Below, one piece after another: positions 10,764 to 16,879 of a stretch of 64,000 nt of DNA (its first letter is position 1; each line of letters starts with the position of its first letter). This DNA comes from Candidatus Praeruminimicrobium purgamenti (GTDB taxonomy: Bacteria > Elusimicrobiota > Endomicrobiia > Endomicrobiales > Endomicrobiaceae): assembly GCA_018433585.1 (NCBI GenBank), contig JAHDQW010000001.1:186001-250000 (forward strand), in the 5' to 3' direction. A program made the translations under genes and the position numbers. The notes under the pieces were generated by a model, which was given only the letters and a program-made list of their open reading frames with translations, was not told the origin of the DNA and did no database searches.

Positions 10764-13700
10764 TTAAGCCGAATATAACAAAGCTCTGATATTTGTTATA
10801 TTCGGTATTTTATTTGCATCAATAAAACCTTTTCTTTCTTTATCAAGTATTTTAGGCAGTACAATAGATGTCCCTATTAATAAAGATATGCCTGCCGCAA
10901 TTAAAGAATTGCTGCTTATTCCGGCTGAAAGAAGACAACTTATTAATATTTGCGTAACGCTTGCAGTTATTGTTCCGGCCATAGATTTAAATGCAAGCCA
11001 TTTAGACCTCATATTTTCACCCAAAACTTCATATACGGCAGAAATTTCAGTCAAAGAAGATGTCCCCTGCCAAAAATTCATTGAAATGTATACAAGAAAT
11101 AAAAACAGCGGATTGTTTGTTATTATAAAAGCTGAAAAAACAATACCGACTGTGATAAAAAATATAGTTCTGTGTCGGTTGTTATCGGCAATATTATTAA
11201 TTCTTGAAATAAAATTTGATGCAACGGACTGTAAAATATTTGCCGTAAAATATATCGGAGCGAGAAATACGGGATGTAAACCGCCGGCAACAAATGATGG
11301 CTGCAGGAAGAAACAAAAAATTACAAAAAACACATTATTGACTATTATGTTGAAGGATGCAAGCAAAAGAGGCTTTTTGTTTGATAATAATATTGAAAAA
11401 GGAGATAAAATATCATTTAAATATCCTTTCAAAACGAATTTTTCTTTTTTTGCAGATTCATGTTTTGTGCTTTTTACTTTTTCTTTGTGTGTAAAAATCA
11501 TTGCGCCAATTAAGCATGCTATGTCCAATAATGCCGCAATTGAAATTACAGTAATTTGATTTGTAAAAAAGGCTATTAATCCGCCGAGCAAAGAAGAGGC
11601 AGACATTATTATCCAAAAAAGAGCAAGATTTGAACCGTAAAGTTCTTTAAAAGATTCCTTTTCTCCTAGCCTTTCAAGTGATTTGAAAAGAAAAGGACTT
11701 AGACTGACATTTAATCCGGAAATTCCTATCACAGGTAAGATTTGTGAAGCTGTCAGTAAAACCGGCGATAATCCAGATACTGCAAAACATACTGTTCCGA
11801 TTGTATGAATTAACAAAGATATTACGATAACGGTTCTCTTTGAAATTTTATCTCCGATAAAACCTGTTATTGCCGAACTAAAAAAGCTTACAGGGGCAAG
11901 TATTGAAAATATCAAAGCTATAAATTCCAAACTGTATCCGTTTGACTGTATAAAAATAGTGGAAAATGAAGAATATAAATCAAAACCAAGCATTAATTGT
12001 ATAAACGGGAAATATTTTATATTTGATTCCATATCTTTCATTTCTTTTACGTCAGAATATTTTTGTGGCGAAACGTCATATTTATAAGTAAACGGCAGCT
12101 TCAGTTTCTGAAAATAATATAAAACGGACTTTTTTATTTTTAAAAGCCATCCTTTAATGCTGAATTTGTTACTTGTTAAAACTATATCAGACAAATCAAT
12201 CTTGCTTTTTAAAGTAGTTGCGTGAGAAAAGAATTTTTTATGAGAATTTGCCCAGTCATTTAATGTTTTTATGATTTCTTTATCTTTTAAACCGTTGTGT
12301 CTCAATTCTTTAATCCATGTCAATAAAAAATATTCCTGCTTGTATTTTGATATCCCGGAGACTAACAGCCCGTCTGAAAGAGCATCATAAGTTGTATTTA
12401 TGTTCATTAATATATTCTTGTATTGCTTTTTGTCGGTTGTTTTTGTATTTGGCATAATGACAATATATTTTAAACCTGCTTCATTAAGAAGATCCGTAAT
12501 ATCGTTGTGAAAACCTCCTGTAACAAGAATATTTATTTTTTCTTTTTGCATATTATTTTTAATAACGCTGGAAAAAGTGACGCTTCTTTTTAGATTGTTC
12601 TTATAATAATCAGAAAATAATTGGTTATTCATCAGATTCTGTATATATATATCGTTTAAAGTATTTGTTTTAAAAATATCTGGTATATTTTCTTTTTTTT
12701 CGTTAAATTCTTTCAGATCCTCAAAAGTCATTTCCAGAGAGGCATAATCTTTCAGATAATCAAGCATCCGGCTTGATAAGGCTGTTTTTCGTATTTCCTC
12801 TTTTTTAAAAATTTTATTAAATAATTCTTCTTTTAAAATTTTTTCTTCACATAGAAAATTTTTAAAGTTAAACAAATCTGTAAGTTGATATTTCTTTCTT
12901 AGTTGTTCTACGTATTTATATTTTTGTATTTCATAATCGTTTAAAAAAGGTTTTGCATTGGTATATAATGAAATTAATGTTTCTTCGGCATTTTTCATAT
13001 TGTTTTTTTTCTGAAAGTTTATATAAGAGTTCATCGGGAGTTGTTTTTTTATTGTTTGTGAAAGCAACTCGCTGTCTTTTTTAATGCAATTAAAATTCAT
13101 TTTTTCTAAATCAAGTATTTCAATAAACTTTTGGATGTTTGGATAGTTTTTGTTTATATCTATTGCATATAAATCTGCAAGTTTTTTTAATTTAATGAAA
13201 TTTTTATAGTTTCTTTTGGCGTTTTTGCCGTAAATTTCATCATATAAAAACATATCTTTAGTGTAGAATTCGTATTTTTGTCTTTCAATTATTTTTTCAA
13301 CTATAGACAAGTTTCTCAGAATATATTTTTCTTCAAGTTTTAGTTTTTTGAATATTTTGATATTTGTGATATATATATCCCACGGTTCTATTCCGTACAA
13401 TATTGCATTTTTATTGACAGAGCCGTAATATTCTGCGCCGCTTAATAAACCGTCTTCAAGCATTTTGTTTAGAACTTTTTTTCTTGTGTCATCAGGATAT
13501 ATTTCCCTCAACGCCGACAAATCTATTTTGCCGGCAGGCGCGCCTTCTGTAAAAATGCAGCCCAAAGAGAAATTTGTTCCAAGGTAACGCAAAAGATTAG
13601 ATATATTTTTCTGAGCTTCAGGCTCACAATGCAGATCATTGATAATTATTATATCCGGTTGTTCGGTATTCTGTATGTTTGTATCAAAAATTCTTCCGTA

Positions 13701-13835
13701 AGCGGCAGGTATGCTTTTGCAGTAGTCAGTATCAGCACAATTATTATCATACGGGAAATTACCGGCAGTAACCCCGCAAGGCGTTAAAATGCATATCAGG
13801 TAAGCAATAGCTGTTATTATGGAAATTAGTTTCAT
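10764..13835 (-). CDS. Fusion: TraB/ChaN-like extracytoplasmic domain plus MFS transporter
   Basis: 1023 residues. A signal-like N-terminus (residues 1-25) leads into a domain of about 570 residues with spaced motifs NDLHCEPEAQKN, IFTEGAPAGKID, YGIEPWD and, near residue 441, VTGGFHNDITDLL. His/Glu motifs in this order recall the TraB/PrgY/EreA/ChaN superfamily of metal- or heme-binding hydrolase-like folds. This is a tentative fold call. From about residue 604 on there are roughly 12 membrane segments with an MFS-type GFIGDKISKRTVIV loop. Only six bases separate it from nrdG, so it likely shares the riboswitch-controlled transcript. No clear Shine-Dalgarno. Substrate unknown. Confidence 0.65.
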   Translation of the reverse strand: MKLISIITAIAYLICILTPCGVTAGNFPYDNNCADTDYCKSIPAAYGRIFDTNIQNTEQPDIIIINDLHCEPEAQKNISNLLRYLGTNFSLGCIFTEGAPAGKIDLSALREIYPDDTRKKVLNKMLEDGLLSGAEYYGSVNKNAILYGIEPWDIYITNIKIFKKLKLEEKYILRNLSIVEKIIERQKYEFYTKDMFLYDEIYGKNAKRNYKNFIKLKKLADLYAIDINKNYPNIQKFIEILDLEKMNFNCIKKDSELLSQTIKKQLPMNSYINFQKKNNMKNAEETLISLYTNAKPFLNDYEIQKYKYVEQLRKKYQLTDLFNFKNFLCEEKILKEELFNKIFKKEEIRKTALSSRMLDYLKDYASLEMTFEDLKEFNEKKENIPDIFKTNTLNDIYIQNLMNNQLFSDYYKNNLKRSVTFSSVIKNNMQKEKINILVTGGFHNDITDLLNEAGLKYIVIMPNTKTTDKKQYKNILMNINTTYDALSDGLLVSGISKYKQEYFLLTWIKELRHNGLKDKEIIKTLNDWANSHKKFFSHATTLKSKIDLSDIVLTSNKFSIKGWLLKIKKSVLYYFQKLKLPFTYKYDVSPQKYSDVKEMKDMESNIKYFPFIQLMLGFDLYSSFSTIFIQSNGYSLEFIALIFSILAPVSFFSSAITGFIGDKISKRTVIVISLLIHTIGTVCFAVSGLSPVLLTASQILPVIGISGLNVSLSPFLFKSLERLGEKESFKELYGSNLALFWIIMSASSLLGGLIAFFTNQITVISIAALLDIACLIGAMIFTHKEKVKSTKHESAKKEKFVLKGYLNDILSPFSILLSNKKPLLLASFNIIVNNVFFVIFCFFLQPSFVAGGLHPVFLAPIYFTANILQSVASNFISRINNIADNNRHRTIFFITVGIVFSAFIITNNPLFLFLVYISMNFWQGTSSLTEISAVYEVLGENMRSKWLAFKSMAGTITASVTQILISCLLSAGISSNSLIAAGISLLIGTSIVLPKILDKERKGFIDANKIPNITNIRALLYSA
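10769..10812 (+). terminator. Intrinsic terminator of the trx operon, inside a convergent coding end
   Basis: Perfect 14-bp arms CCGAATATAACAAA (10769-10782) and TTTGTTATATTCGG (10792-10805) with a 9-base loop, then TATTTTATTT. On the plus strand this is a good intrinsic terminator for trxB. The whole hairpin lies within the last codons of the minus-strand MFS fusion gene, whose stop is at 10764-10766. On the minus strand the hairpin is followed by CTTAAAATATT, a poor T tract. Confidence 0.8.
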
Positions 13836-13841
13836 AAATAT

Positions 13842-14429
13842 TTATTTTATTAACGAGTTACAGTTCTGTATCCTGTAATTTTTTTCTTTAAAGAAAACTT
13901 TAATTCTTTCAATGTCTGACGGAAATAACTTTGACGTATCATAAGTGGTTCTAAATTCAAATTTTATTTTTGAATTTTTAATAATATCAATGCTTGAACG
14001 TATTTTTTCTATGTCAACAGGAACGCATGTTAAATAACTGTATTTGTCAAAAGGAGCTTTAATGTCCATTGCTATAAAGTCAATAAGATTTTTATCAATG
14101 ATACTTTTTAATATTTGAGGATTTGAGCCGTTCGTGTCTAACTTTATAAGGTATCCTATAGTTTTAATTTTATATATAAAGTCTTCAATATCATCCTGAC
14201 AGGTAGGCTCTCCGCCGGTAATTACTACGGCATCAAGCTGTTTTTTCCTTAATTCTAAAAATGAAAATATTTCTTCAACAGAAATTGGTATTTTAAACAA
14301 GTTATGATATACAAGTTCAGGGTTATGGCAATATTCACATCTGAAATTGCATCCCTGCGTAAAAATTATTGCTGAAGTTTTTTGAGGGAAGTCAATCAGT
14401 GAAAATTTTTGAAAGCCGCCTATTCTCAT
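13842..14429 (-). CDS. nrdG: Anaerobic ribonucleotide reductase activating protein
   Basis: Radical SAM enzyme that installs the glycyl radical on NrdD. The CxxxCxxC cluster motif is in CNFRCEYCHNPELV, followed by VITGGEPTCQDD, the GGEP motif that helps bind S-adenosylmethionine. The 195-residue length fits NrdG/pyruvate formate-lyase activase-like proteins, and the glycine-rich start (RIGGFQKFSLIDFPQK) is typical. Its ATG overlaps the nrdD stop (ATGA), so the two subunits are made together. Strictly anaerobic function is implied by the oxygen-sensitive 4Fe-4S cluster. Confidence 0.95.
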   Translation of the reverse strand: MRIGGFQKFSLIDFPQKTSAIIFTQGCNFRCEYCHNPELVYHNLFKIPISVEEIFSFLELRKKQLDAVVITGGEPTCQDDIEDFIYKIKTIGYLIKLDTNGSNPQILKSIIDKNLIDFIAMDIKAPFDKYSYLTCVPVDIEKIRSSIDIIKNSKIKFEFRTTYDTSKLFPSDIERIKVFFKEKNYRIQNCNSLIK

Positions 14430-16531
14430 ATGTTTACCGCCTTTCTGATTTTATACTCTTCCTGTTTGCCTTCATTCCACTGTGAAACGGGGCGTAAGTA
14501 ACCTACAACTCTCGAATAAACTTCACATGTTTGTCCGCATGTCGGGCATGTTTTTACTTCTCCATTTTGATATCCGCAGGAAGGGCAGACGCTGAAGGTA
14601 GGGGTAATTGACATATACGGCAGTTTGTAATTTGTAAATGCTTTTTTAATAAATTCTTTAAGCGCTGATGTGTCGGTTATTCTTTCTCCTACAAACATAT
14701 GCTGTACAGTTCCTCCTGTATAGAGAGCTTGTATTTCATGCTGCAATTCAAGAACTTCAAATAAATCGTTTGTATAATTTACAGGCAGCTGCGTTGAATT
14801 TGTATAAAACGGAGGTCTGTTTTGTTTTACTGCTTCCATGTTCGCAAAAACAATAGCTGGATATTTCTTTTTGTCTATTTTTGCCAGTCTGTAAGATGTT
14901 CCTTCCGCGGGAGTTGCTTCCAAATTGTAAATATTTCCTGTTTCCTGCTGATATTTTTCCAGTTTTTCTCTCATGAAGTTAAGAACTTTTGTCGAAAAAT
15001 CTTTTCCTTCACGGCTTGCTATATTTTTTTTAAGAAAATTTAAGCAGCATTCATTCATTCCGACAATGCCGATAGTTGAAAAATGATTTTTCCAAAAGCA
15101 GTTAAATCTTTCTTTTACATTTCTTAAATAATAGCTCATATAAGGATAAAGATTTTGAGCCGTAAGTTTTTCAAGTATTTTTCTTTTTAATTCAAGACTT
15201 TCTTTTGATAAATCCATGAGTTTTTCGAGTTTGTCAAAAAAATCTTTTTCATTTTGTGAAGTAAATCCTAGTCTGGGCATATTAAGAGTTACGACGCCTA
15301 TAGAACCTGTTAAAGGAGACGCCCCGAATAATCCTCCTCCTCGCCTTCTGAGTTCCCTGTTATCTATTCTTAACCTGCAGCACATGCTTCTTGCGTCATC
15401 AGGGTCCATCTCAGAATTAATAAAATTTGCAAAATAAGGAATACCGTATTTCGCGGTGATCTCCCAAAGCAGCTTTAAAGAATGATTGTCCCAGTCAAAA
15501 TTTTTGCCTATATTATATGTCGGTATCGGGAATGTAAAAACTCTCCCTTTTGCATCGCCTTCCAACATTACTTCCAGAAAAGCTTCGTTGAGCATATTCA
15601 TTTCATTTTGGAAGTCTTTATATTTACTGTCCAGTATTTTTCCGCCGATAACTACATTTTCATCGGCATAATGTTTAGGAACCTTTACGTCAAATGTAAG
15701 GTTTGTAAAAGGCGACTGAAAGCCTACTCTTGTAGGTACGTTTAAATTAAACAAGAATTCCTGCAAAGCTTGTTTTACGTCTTTATACCGGAGTTTGTCA
15801 TAAGCAATAAAAGGAGCCAGCAACGTGTCAAAGCTTGAAAAAGCCTGAGCTCCTGCGGCTTCGCCTTGTAATGTGTAAAAGAAATTTACTATTTGTCCTA
15901 AAGCTGTCCTGAAATGCCGTGCCGGGACAGATTCAACCTTTCCCGAGACGCCTTTAAACCCCGTAAGCAGCAAATCATATAAATCCCATCCTACGCAGTA
16001 TACTCCGAGGATACCTAAGTCATGTATGTGTAAATTACCATCTGAATGGGCATTCTTTATTTGGGGAGTGTATATTTTATTGAGCCAGTATATTTTGCTG
16101 ATTTCGGAAGAAATGTAGTTGTTAAGCCCCTGCAAAGAATAAGACATATTGCTGTTTTCATTTACCTGCCAGTCTTTTTTTGAAAGATACTGGTCAATTA
16201 AATCAACGTTGAAATTGGATACGATATCTCTTATTTTTGAGTGTTGTTCCCTGTATAAAATATATGCTTTTGCGGAGGCTTTGTAAGGAGATGTTAAAAG
16301 TACTTCTTCAACTACGTCCTGAATTTCTTCTACCGATGGATTGTTTTTCTTGAAAATCTGCTGGAGAATATTAACTACTTTAAATGTTAATTTTAATGAA
16401 GCCTGCTCGTCAAATTCAGCTGCCGCCAGGCCGGCTTTATAAATTGCCGACTTTATTTTTTCGGCATTGAATTTCTCTGTTTTTCCGTCTCTTTTTGTAA
16501 CATTTTCAAAAACCGGCGTTATCTTTCTCAT
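14426..16531 (-). CDS. nrdD: Anaerobic (class III) ribonucleoside-triphosphate reductase
   Basis: Reduces NTPs to dNTPs using a glycyl radical. An N-terminal ATP cone (KRDGKTEKFNAEKIKSAIYK) senses ATP/dATP. A four-Cys zinc site is in CPSCGYQ...CPTCGQTC. The glycyl radical motif RVVGYLRPVSQWN is at the C-terminus. The frame could start 24 bases earlier, but GGGGG four bases before ATG 16531 gives the better start and the usual MRKITPVF-like N-terminus (701 residues). It lies downstream of a cobalamin riboswitch, which fits control of a B12-independent isozyme when a B12-dependent class II enzyme exists elsewhere; that enzyme is not in this window. Confidence 0.96.
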   Translation of the reverse strand: MRKITPVFENVTKRDGKTEKFNAEKIKSAIYKAGLAAAEFDEQASLKLTFKVVNILQQIFKKNNPSVEEIQDVVEEVLLTSPYKASAKAYILYREQHSKIRDIVSNFNVDLIDQYLSKKDWQVNENSNMSYSLQGLNNYISSEISKIYWLNKIYTPQIKNAHSDGNLHIHDLGILGVYCVGWDLYDLLLTGFKGVSGKVESVPARHFRTALGQIVNFFYTLQGEAAGAQAFSSFDTLLAPFIAYDKLRYKDVKQALQEFLFNLNVPTRVGFQSPFTNLTFDVKVPKHYADENVVIGGKILDSKYKDFQNEMNMLNEAFLEVMLEGDAKGRVFTFPIPTYNIGKNFDWDNHSLKLLWEITAKYGIPYFANFINSEMDPDDARSMCCRLRIDNRELRRRGGGLFGASPLTGSIGVVTLNMPRLGFTSQNEKDFFDKLEKLMDLSKESLELKRKILEKLTAQNLYPYMSYYLRNVKERFNCFWKNHFSTIGIVGMNECCLNFLKKNIASREGKDFSTKVLNFMREKLEKYQQETGNIYNLEATPAEGTSYRLAKIDKKKYPAIVFANMEAVKQNRPPFYTNSTQLPVNYTNDLFEVLELQHEIQALYTGGTVQHMFVGERITDTSALKEFIKKAFTNYKLPYMSITPTFSVCPSCGYQNGEVKTCPTCGQTCEVYSRVVGYLRPVSQWNEGKQEEYKIRKAVNI

Positions 16532-16539
16532 ACATCCCC

Positions 16540-16565
16540 CTATTTGTTTATTCACTCACAAATAG
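16540..16565 (-). promoter_or_regulatory. Hairpin abutting the nrdD ribosome binding site
   Basis: On the minus strand CTATTTGT and ACAAATAG form perfect 8-bp arms with a 10-base loop, and the 3' arm runs straight into the GGGGG Shine-Dalgarno of nrdD. A second inverted repeat (GTGGAAT/ATTCCAC, 16565-16571 with 16589-16595) lies just upstream. Neither is followed by a T run, so a translational expression platform for the riboswitch is more likely than a terminator. This is inference from base pairing only. Confidence 0.45.
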
Positions 16566-16643
16566 TGGAATGCACCCTGGTTTTCTTAATTCCACAAACA
16601 ATATATCCAAGTTATTCCGCGACAACTTGTAATTGCATATATT

Positions 16644-16824
16644 CTTAGTGGCAGGTCTTCTGACTCAGGGCAAAAAATACCTACTAGACTTCCTTCCCGC
16701 TTTTATACAGACAAGCAGTGGTTTTTCAACGTTTTGTTGAAAGTCTTTCGATTCCCTTTACAGCACCGGGAGTGTTTTCGATTTTCACGAAATTTCCTAT
16801 TAAGCTTTTTCAAGCACCAGTAAG
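16644..16824 (-). promoter_or_regulatory. Cobalamin (AdoCbl-type) riboswitch
   Basis: Read on the minus strand, the element contains the B12 box AGTCAGAAGACCTGCC (plus-strand 16650-16665). Upstream of it are GGGAAGG, the CCACTG segment, a CGGTGCTG..AAAGGGAA region and GGTGC near the 5' end, in the order of the cobalamin riboswitch core. The ends CTTACTGG and CCACTAAG can pair as P1 with one mismatch. It starts about 20 bases after the predicted transcription start and lies about 110 bases upstream of nrdD. Ligand binding would repress the B12-independent reductase operon. Confidence 0.93.
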
Positions 16825-16850
16825 TTTAATTACTTTTTTATGACAAAATG

Positions 16851-16879
16851 ATTATAAGTTTTAAATTTTTATTTGTCAA
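16851..16879 (-). promoter_or_regulatory. Perfect consensus promoter for the riboswitch-nrdDG operon
   Basis: On the minus strand: TTGACA (16879-16874), a 17-base spacer, TATAAT (16856-16851). Both hexamers and the spacer match the sigma-70 consensus exactly, placing the start site near 16844, directly before the riboswitch. Confidence 0.9.

Follow-up and report, generated by a model that had tools for sequence, protein, structure and literature searches.

A TIKI-superfamily-like domain fused to an MFS permease in a riboswitch-linked nrdDG operon of Candidatus Praeruminimicrobium purgamenti, and its giant relatives in Elusimicrobiota

Introduction

Proteins of the TIKI superfamily (TraB/PrgY, EreA/EreB/Bcr135, ChaN and the Tiki proteases) have an active site that comprises an ExH motif, a second Glu, a basic residue and finally another His; two His and two Glu form the catalytic set (PMC6254334). 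In Bcr135 (85/113) and RRSP (3902/3930), the second Glu follows the His by 28 residues (PMC6254334). The Pfam family nearest to the domain described below is that of the haem-binding ChaN (PF04187), which is a single-domain protein of about 270-360 aa, unlike the fusion with a permease of the major facilitator superfamily (MFS) that is the subject of this study.

The control of B12-sparing and B12-uptake genes by riboswitches is a general pattern (PMC3766115). The B12-regulon papers retrieved for this analysis did not mention a TIKI-headed MFS permease. A 2024 survey counts the Elusimicrobiota as one of the bacterial phyla with the most huge proteins (>5,000 aa), which had no COG assignments (PMC11573180); in a paper of the same year on Endomicrobia genomes (PMC11257099), the words giant, effector, secretion and toxin are all absent.

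Here we describe a TIKI-like domain/MFS fusion of Candidatus Praeruminimicrobium purgamenti (genome of 1.86 Mb in 20 contigs), its domain layout, its nrdDG operon with a cobalamin riboswitch, its conservation, and its separate linkage to AdoCbl riboswitches in related genera. All positions refer to the 64,000-nt stretch of contig JAHDQW010000001.1 that was analysed (the window), and all features of the locus lie on its minus strand.

Results and Discussion

The fusion protein of 1023 aa is encoded by a single uninterrupted open reading frame that fills positions 10764-13835 exactly, as an earlier note on this DNA had claimed while leaving the strand unstated. It begins with a signal-peptide-like stretch (residues 1-24, MKLISIITAIAYLICILTPCGVTA, positions 13764-13835) with a hydrophobic segment at residues 4-22 (KD 2.21), which is followed by the TIKI-superfamily-like domain, referred to here as the head (residues ~43-465, about 420 aa, positions 12441-13709; delimited by motif residues, alignments and an AlphaFold model). 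According to the model, the head contains an all-helical insertion of about 280 aa (residues ~152-428, positions 12552-13382). A linker (residues ~480-605, positions 12021-12398), conserved even in those orthologues that lack the head, leads to an MFS permease (residues 606-1000, positions 10836-12020). The full permease reported in the earlier note is borne out by a match to MFS_1 from residue 615 (45.6 bits, cut-off 33.4), 12 hydrophobic segments and the motif A GFIGDKISKR. The C-terminal tail RALLYSA (positions 10767-10787) fits the [IL]Lx[SAC]A end found family-wide.

The gene is the third and last of an operon and starts 6 nt after nrdG, the gene of the anaerobic ribonucleotide reductase activase (positions 13842-14429; PF04055, PF13353), the 5' part of which overlaps nrdD (positions 14426-16555), encoding a class III anaerobic ribonucleotide reductase with an ATP cone (PF13597, 667 bits; PF03477). 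No terminator-like sites were found on the minus strand between the three genes. The leader contains a full-length cobalamin riboswitch aptamer (RF00174, 85 bits, positions 16633-16836) and, about 15 nt upstream of it, a promoter-like TTGACA-17-TATAAT sequence (positions 16851-16879), which agrees with the sigma-70 consensus at 12 of 12 positions and is a consensus match only. The B12 riboswitch mentioned in the earlier note is thus real, but it does not adjoin the fusion gene: it is located 2.8 kb upstream, ahead of nrdD. In its regulatory RNA families and its operon logic, the locus agrees with btuB, btuFCD and the nrd genes, whose transporters and isozymes are under B12 riboswitches.

The named relatives found all belong to the Endomicrobia or Elusimicrobia, and the closest of them is a MAG of the Endomicrobiaceae. 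When 84 Endomicrobiales genomes were searched with the MFS part, 17 of them, from 7 genera, gave 26 matches in total; the fusion itself is present in 7 genera of Endomicrobiaceae. The order riboswitch-nrdD-nrdG-fusion recurs in a second genome of the same genus (G001) and in four genomes of genus g10 (G010, G156, G019, G155); in G108, the order nrdD-nrdG-fusion is conserved and the contig ends before the leader. The fusion also occurs as a stand-alone gene under a riboswitch of its own. In G076 and G017, it lies directly under an AdoCbl riboswitch (RF01482, 59.6 and 55.8 bits), and in G004 under an RF01482 element (57.0 bits) that overlaps the start codon. These three genomes add three genera and cover both main MFS clades, the G076 fusion belonging to the other clade. 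As such copies exist, B12 control is a property of the fusion itself as well as of nrdDG, and the view of the fusion as a mere passenger of nrdDG was rejected. The B12 connection, put forward in the earlier note as an attractive idea, is much strengthened by this arrangement.

The B12 linkage of the fusion probably does not extend to its head. In the orthologues from the nrdDG operons of G019 and G155 (593 and 612 aa), the signal-like stretch, linker, MFS part and tail are kept and the head is absent. The head is therefore dispensable for whatever purpose B12 control serves, and this speaks against simple binding of corrinoids by the domain. The same head is present on giant proteins with unrelated payloads and without a riboswitch (see below). 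A head specific for B12 or porphyrins is therefore unlikely, and binding of haem or cobalamin by the head itself finds no support. In a second copy of G019, the MFS part and the head are split between neighbouring genes that overlap, which hints that the two can work together.

Another TIKI-MFS fusion of the studied genome (locus L018, 8187-11396, corresponding to C8:308187-311396) has an MFS part 56% identical to that of the window protein and adjoins a feoB-like gene and a gene of an outer-membrane-porin-like protein. No riboswitch was found at this copy or at the second copy of G001, beside feoB. A three-part TIKI-MFS-giant protein is encoded in G015 (L158, 1-6831), where the MFS part is followed in frame by an extra hydrophobic segment and a payload of more than 1,100 aa.

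The genome encodes NrdJ, a MetH-sized B12-binding protein, and a complete set of btuB, btuFCD and cobO, gene names being assigned from sequence and gene order. The cobO-btuF-btuC-btuD and btuB loci (L177, 5756-11272) are under one AdoCbl (RF01482) and one Cobalamin (RF00174) riboswitch. This gene content fits an organism that would salvage B12 and keep its B12-sparing and uptake genes under riboswitches.

The assignment of the head to the TIKI superfamily was proposed in the earlier note from the order of the motifs NDLHCEPEAQ, TEGAPAG, YGIEPWD and GGFHND. All four are present in that order, and they are not a chance occurrence: the 12 other verified copies of the head in this genome and hundreds of loci in relatives retain D67, H69, Q75, E97, E135, N158, N414, R417 and H443. 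Across the 13 copies from this genome and 62 aligned relatives, these nine residues are invariant. The motif residues of the head as a whole are D67xH69, Q75, E97, G98, E135, N158, N414, R417, G440-G441-x-H443 and P462. The notion of a lineage oddity is refuted by the 26 matches of the MFS part, which are spread over 17 Endomicrobiales genomes. In the signature DxH-28-E...R...H, the Glu follows the His by 28 residues in 99 of the 105 members for which the motif search gave a result. The first acidic position is Asp in 104 of these 105, and H69, E97 and H443 do not vary; R417 is an invariant basic residue ahead of the last His, as in the TIKI active site. An AlphaFold model of residues 26-545, calculated with 61 relatives (pLDDT 82.5, pTM 0.79), has six core strands with flanking helices, and the strands bear DLH, EGA, GIE, GGFH and MP. 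The residue order, the spacing and the order of strands and helices are those of the TIKI superfamily. The differences are the Asp in place of the first Glu, the helical insertion of about 280 aa before the Arg/His part, and the N-terminal fusion to an MFS permease or giant payloads, as well as the failure of Pfam to detect the domain in the window protein. The His-Glu spacing of the family (28) is close to that of the ChaN proteins inspected (29).

Direct comparisons with known proteins gave nothing significant. The structure prediction suggested in the earlier note gave a confident core, but a Foldseek search of the PDB and a viral library with this model yielded no significant match; the most plausible of the weak matches, and the top-ranked TIKI-type protein among them, was the erythromycin esterase EreC (6xcs; E=0.65, probability 0.21). 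A phmmer and profile search of the PDB with the head gave nothing significant, and neither did hhalign of the head against six bona fide ChaN proteins. There was no match over the cut-off to PF04187 in the window protein or its near relatives, no match to the ChaN, TraB and esterase Pfam models among 62 family members, and no match over the cut-off to PF01963 (TraB/PrgY) and PF05139 (erythromycin esterase) in 60 and 120 Elusimicrobiota genomes. Such results would be expected if the head were an alpha/beta domain of other descent that carries a helical insertion and resembles the TIKI motif by chance. We regard this as improbable, given that the predominant His-Glu spacing of 28 is that of Bcr135 and RRSP, that the order of Asp/His/Glu/Arg/His and of the strands agrees with TIKI, and that PF04187 is matched by distant members. 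The latter, which come from Elusimicrobiota of other families and are homologous to the head (hhalign probability 99.9, E 1.6e-34), include L104, which matches the ChaN/Tiki model PF04187 marginally over the cut-off (27.8 vs. 27.7 bits), and L108, L115 and L116, which match it below the cut-off (25.5, 21.3 and 20.2 bits). The motif, the AlphaFold core and these distant relatives provide a good but transitive basis for calling the head TIKI-superfamily-like. The superfamily call of the earlier note stands to this extent, by motif signature and distant PF04187 matches, but not by direct fold or profile comparison, and we do not assign the head to ChaN, TraB or Ere.

The head is not confined to MFS fusions. 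Of its 14 matches in the studied genome, 13 were verified as copies: the two MFS fusions and 11 domains at the N-terminus of large open reading frames, the complete ones being of 1511-4708 aa. The genomes of relatives have as many as 25 copies each, in open frames of up to 12,027 aa. It was found in 43 of 150 sampled Elusimicrobiota genomes, including four families outside the class, and is absent from several relatives with small genomes. Two contigs of the studied assembly (L013, L015) end within giant genes, so that the counts and sizes of giants given here are underestimates. The payloads that follow the head match various Pfam families (PPDK and PEP-utilizer with the catalytic His kept, HD, metallophosphatase, cytidine-deaminase-like, RamC-like, and PGM/UDPGP), and many have no Pfam match at all. 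In the 4708-aa giant of L009 (2427-16553, minus strand), which ends with RNILSAA, a PEP-utilizer domain with the His motif GGGILSHAAI precedes PPDK_N in the C-terminal part, a reversal of the usual order. At eight regions of this genome that bear giant genes, no riboswitch turned up. The viral contigs contained no relative, and a viral origin was rejected.

Members of the family also share the C-terminus. As computed over the retrieved loci, 19 of 24 complete members end with [ILMVF]L.[SAGCR]A, vs. 3 of 462 other open reading frames, and these three resemble 3' fragments of family genes. An ssrA-like degron function of the [IL]LxxA end was considered and finds no support: the tag encoded by the organism's own tmRNA (L168, 1501-1892; long tag predicted by ARAGORN, DKQIVPNSMFKPFMGFGAMPIAA) ends with AMPIAA and has no Leu at position -4. 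Directly upstream of 50 of the 81 members with enough upstream sequence lies an open reading frame of about 160-225 aa that has hydrophobic segments close to both ends (L009 16543-17103, L010 15511-16044, L012 8620-9144, L013 10299-10880, L015 5554-6102, L017 2063-2560, and 44 more loci); both MFS fusions included in this set are without such a two-TM partner. With regard to the huge Elusimicrobiota proteins of the survey (PMC11573180), the common head, C-terminus and upstream partner gene characterise one family of such proteins.

The Cys content of the giants' payloads is 0.23%, vs. 1.20% in open reading frames without TM segments, and this depletion suggests that the giants are exported. 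A wider reading, which we consider unlikely though conceivable, is that the TIKI-headed proteins together are an export system peculiar to the Elusimicrobiota lineage, of which the B12-controlled MFS fusion would be the membrane-retained form. Its parts would be a signal peptide, a TIKI hydrolase head, a payload of 1,000 to more than 10,000 residues (kinase-like, deaminase-like, HD, sugar-nucleotide enzymes and others), the [IL]LxxA recognition end, and the two-TM partner, and either the head or the partner would recognise the C-terminal tail for processing or release.

The location of the head of the MFS fusion relative to the membrane is less clear, and its description in the earlier note as extracytoplasmic is not confirmed. 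The Sec-signal-like N-terminus says that the head is outside. On the other hand, the even-numbered loops of the MFS part and the C-terminus contain about 28 Lys and Arg residues and the odd loops none, a pattern repeated in two orthologues, which by the positive-inside rule is indicative of an N-in/C-in permease with residue ~605 in the cytoplasm. An exported head would require one additional membrane crossing, which is absent from the sequence: no TM segment is present between the signal-like stretch and the MFS part, including the linker. The full-length predicted model is too weak in the MFS part to favour either side, as only two full-length alignment rows were usable. Internal translation initiation at a conserved MESN before the MFS part, an escape from this conflict, was dismissed, and no clear ribosome-binding site precedes MESN in the part of the sequences inspected. 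It is possible, if doubtful, that the head is wholly cytoplasmic and acts on a cytosolic substrate, and that the hydrophobic N-terminus of the MFS fusions is no export signal. The charge pattern, which requires residue ~605 inside with no TM segment in between, speaks for this, as does the Cys content of fusion heads (0.63%), twice that of the giants' heads (0.31%). The typical features of the signal peptide, the conservation of an IPxGVTA-like stretch near the N-terminus among orthologues, and the strong Cys depletion of the giants, which points to export of the family, speak against it. A cytoplasmic head would be compatible with the explanation that we favour for the fusion as a whole.

According to that explanation, which is the best we can offer and which we hold tentatively, at a little under even confidence, the fusion is an inner-membrane MFS transporter induced upon B12 starvation and represents the membrane branch of the TIKI-headed, [IL]LxxA-ended family of Elusimicrobiota. 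A fall in intracellular cobalamin would let the riboswitch permit expression of the operon, and NrdDG would take the place of the B12-dependent ribonucleotide reductase NrdJ. The MFS part may then move a corrinoid or a corrinoid-related compound over the inner membrane, besides the BtuB-BtuFCD route. This substrate is our best guess, drawn from regulation, and one that could well prove wrong. The nearest curated MFS models are those of the Tet(A-D) and Bcr/CflA efflux families, both far below cut-off, which makes export as possible as import. The complete BtuFCD leaves no gap to fill, and a missing inner-membrane B12 importer was rejected as the sole reason for the MFS part. The second copies beside feoB without a riboswitch, the two riboswitch-linked orthologues without a head, and the absence of any significant fold or profile match of the head in direct comparison also speak against the explanation as a whole.

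The constant partnership with nrdDG in two genera and the presence of NrdJ and the MetH-sized B12-binding protein would agree with another substrate, namely a B12-sparing metabolite, most plausibly deoxyribonucleosides or methionine-cycle compounds, carried in or out, which would offset the loss of NrdJ or MetH activity under B12 shortage. We find this rather unlikely, since in three genera the fusion is alone under the riboswitch, without nrdDG, and its MFS part resembles no nucleoside or amino-acid MFS model. More improbable still is a DHA1-kind efflux pump for a drug-like compound that came under B12 control incidentally; although the best NCBIfam likeness is to Tet(A-D) at 30 bits and, in a relative, to Bcr/CflA at 23 bits, both far below cut-off, a linkage to B12 riboswitches that recurs in five genera is not expected of a drug pump.

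As for the head of the proposed B12-starvation-induced transporter, the intact set of Asp/His/Glu/Arg/His suggests, more weakly than the steps above, that it may be an active hydrolase, and its presence in the whole family makes it probably not B12-specific. Most likely, it would be a hydrolase serving a family-wide step such as processing or docking, that is, the common N-terminal module of these proteins.

Conclusions

In at least five genera, an MFS protein that had not been studied is connected with vitamin B12 through its regulation, which makes the MFS fusion a concrete candidate for a corrinoid-related transporter of B12-salvaging bacteria of the gut and rumen. The common hydrolase-motif head, the C-terminus and the partner gene offer a first handle on the giant proteins of Elusimicrobiota, to which no function has been ascribed.
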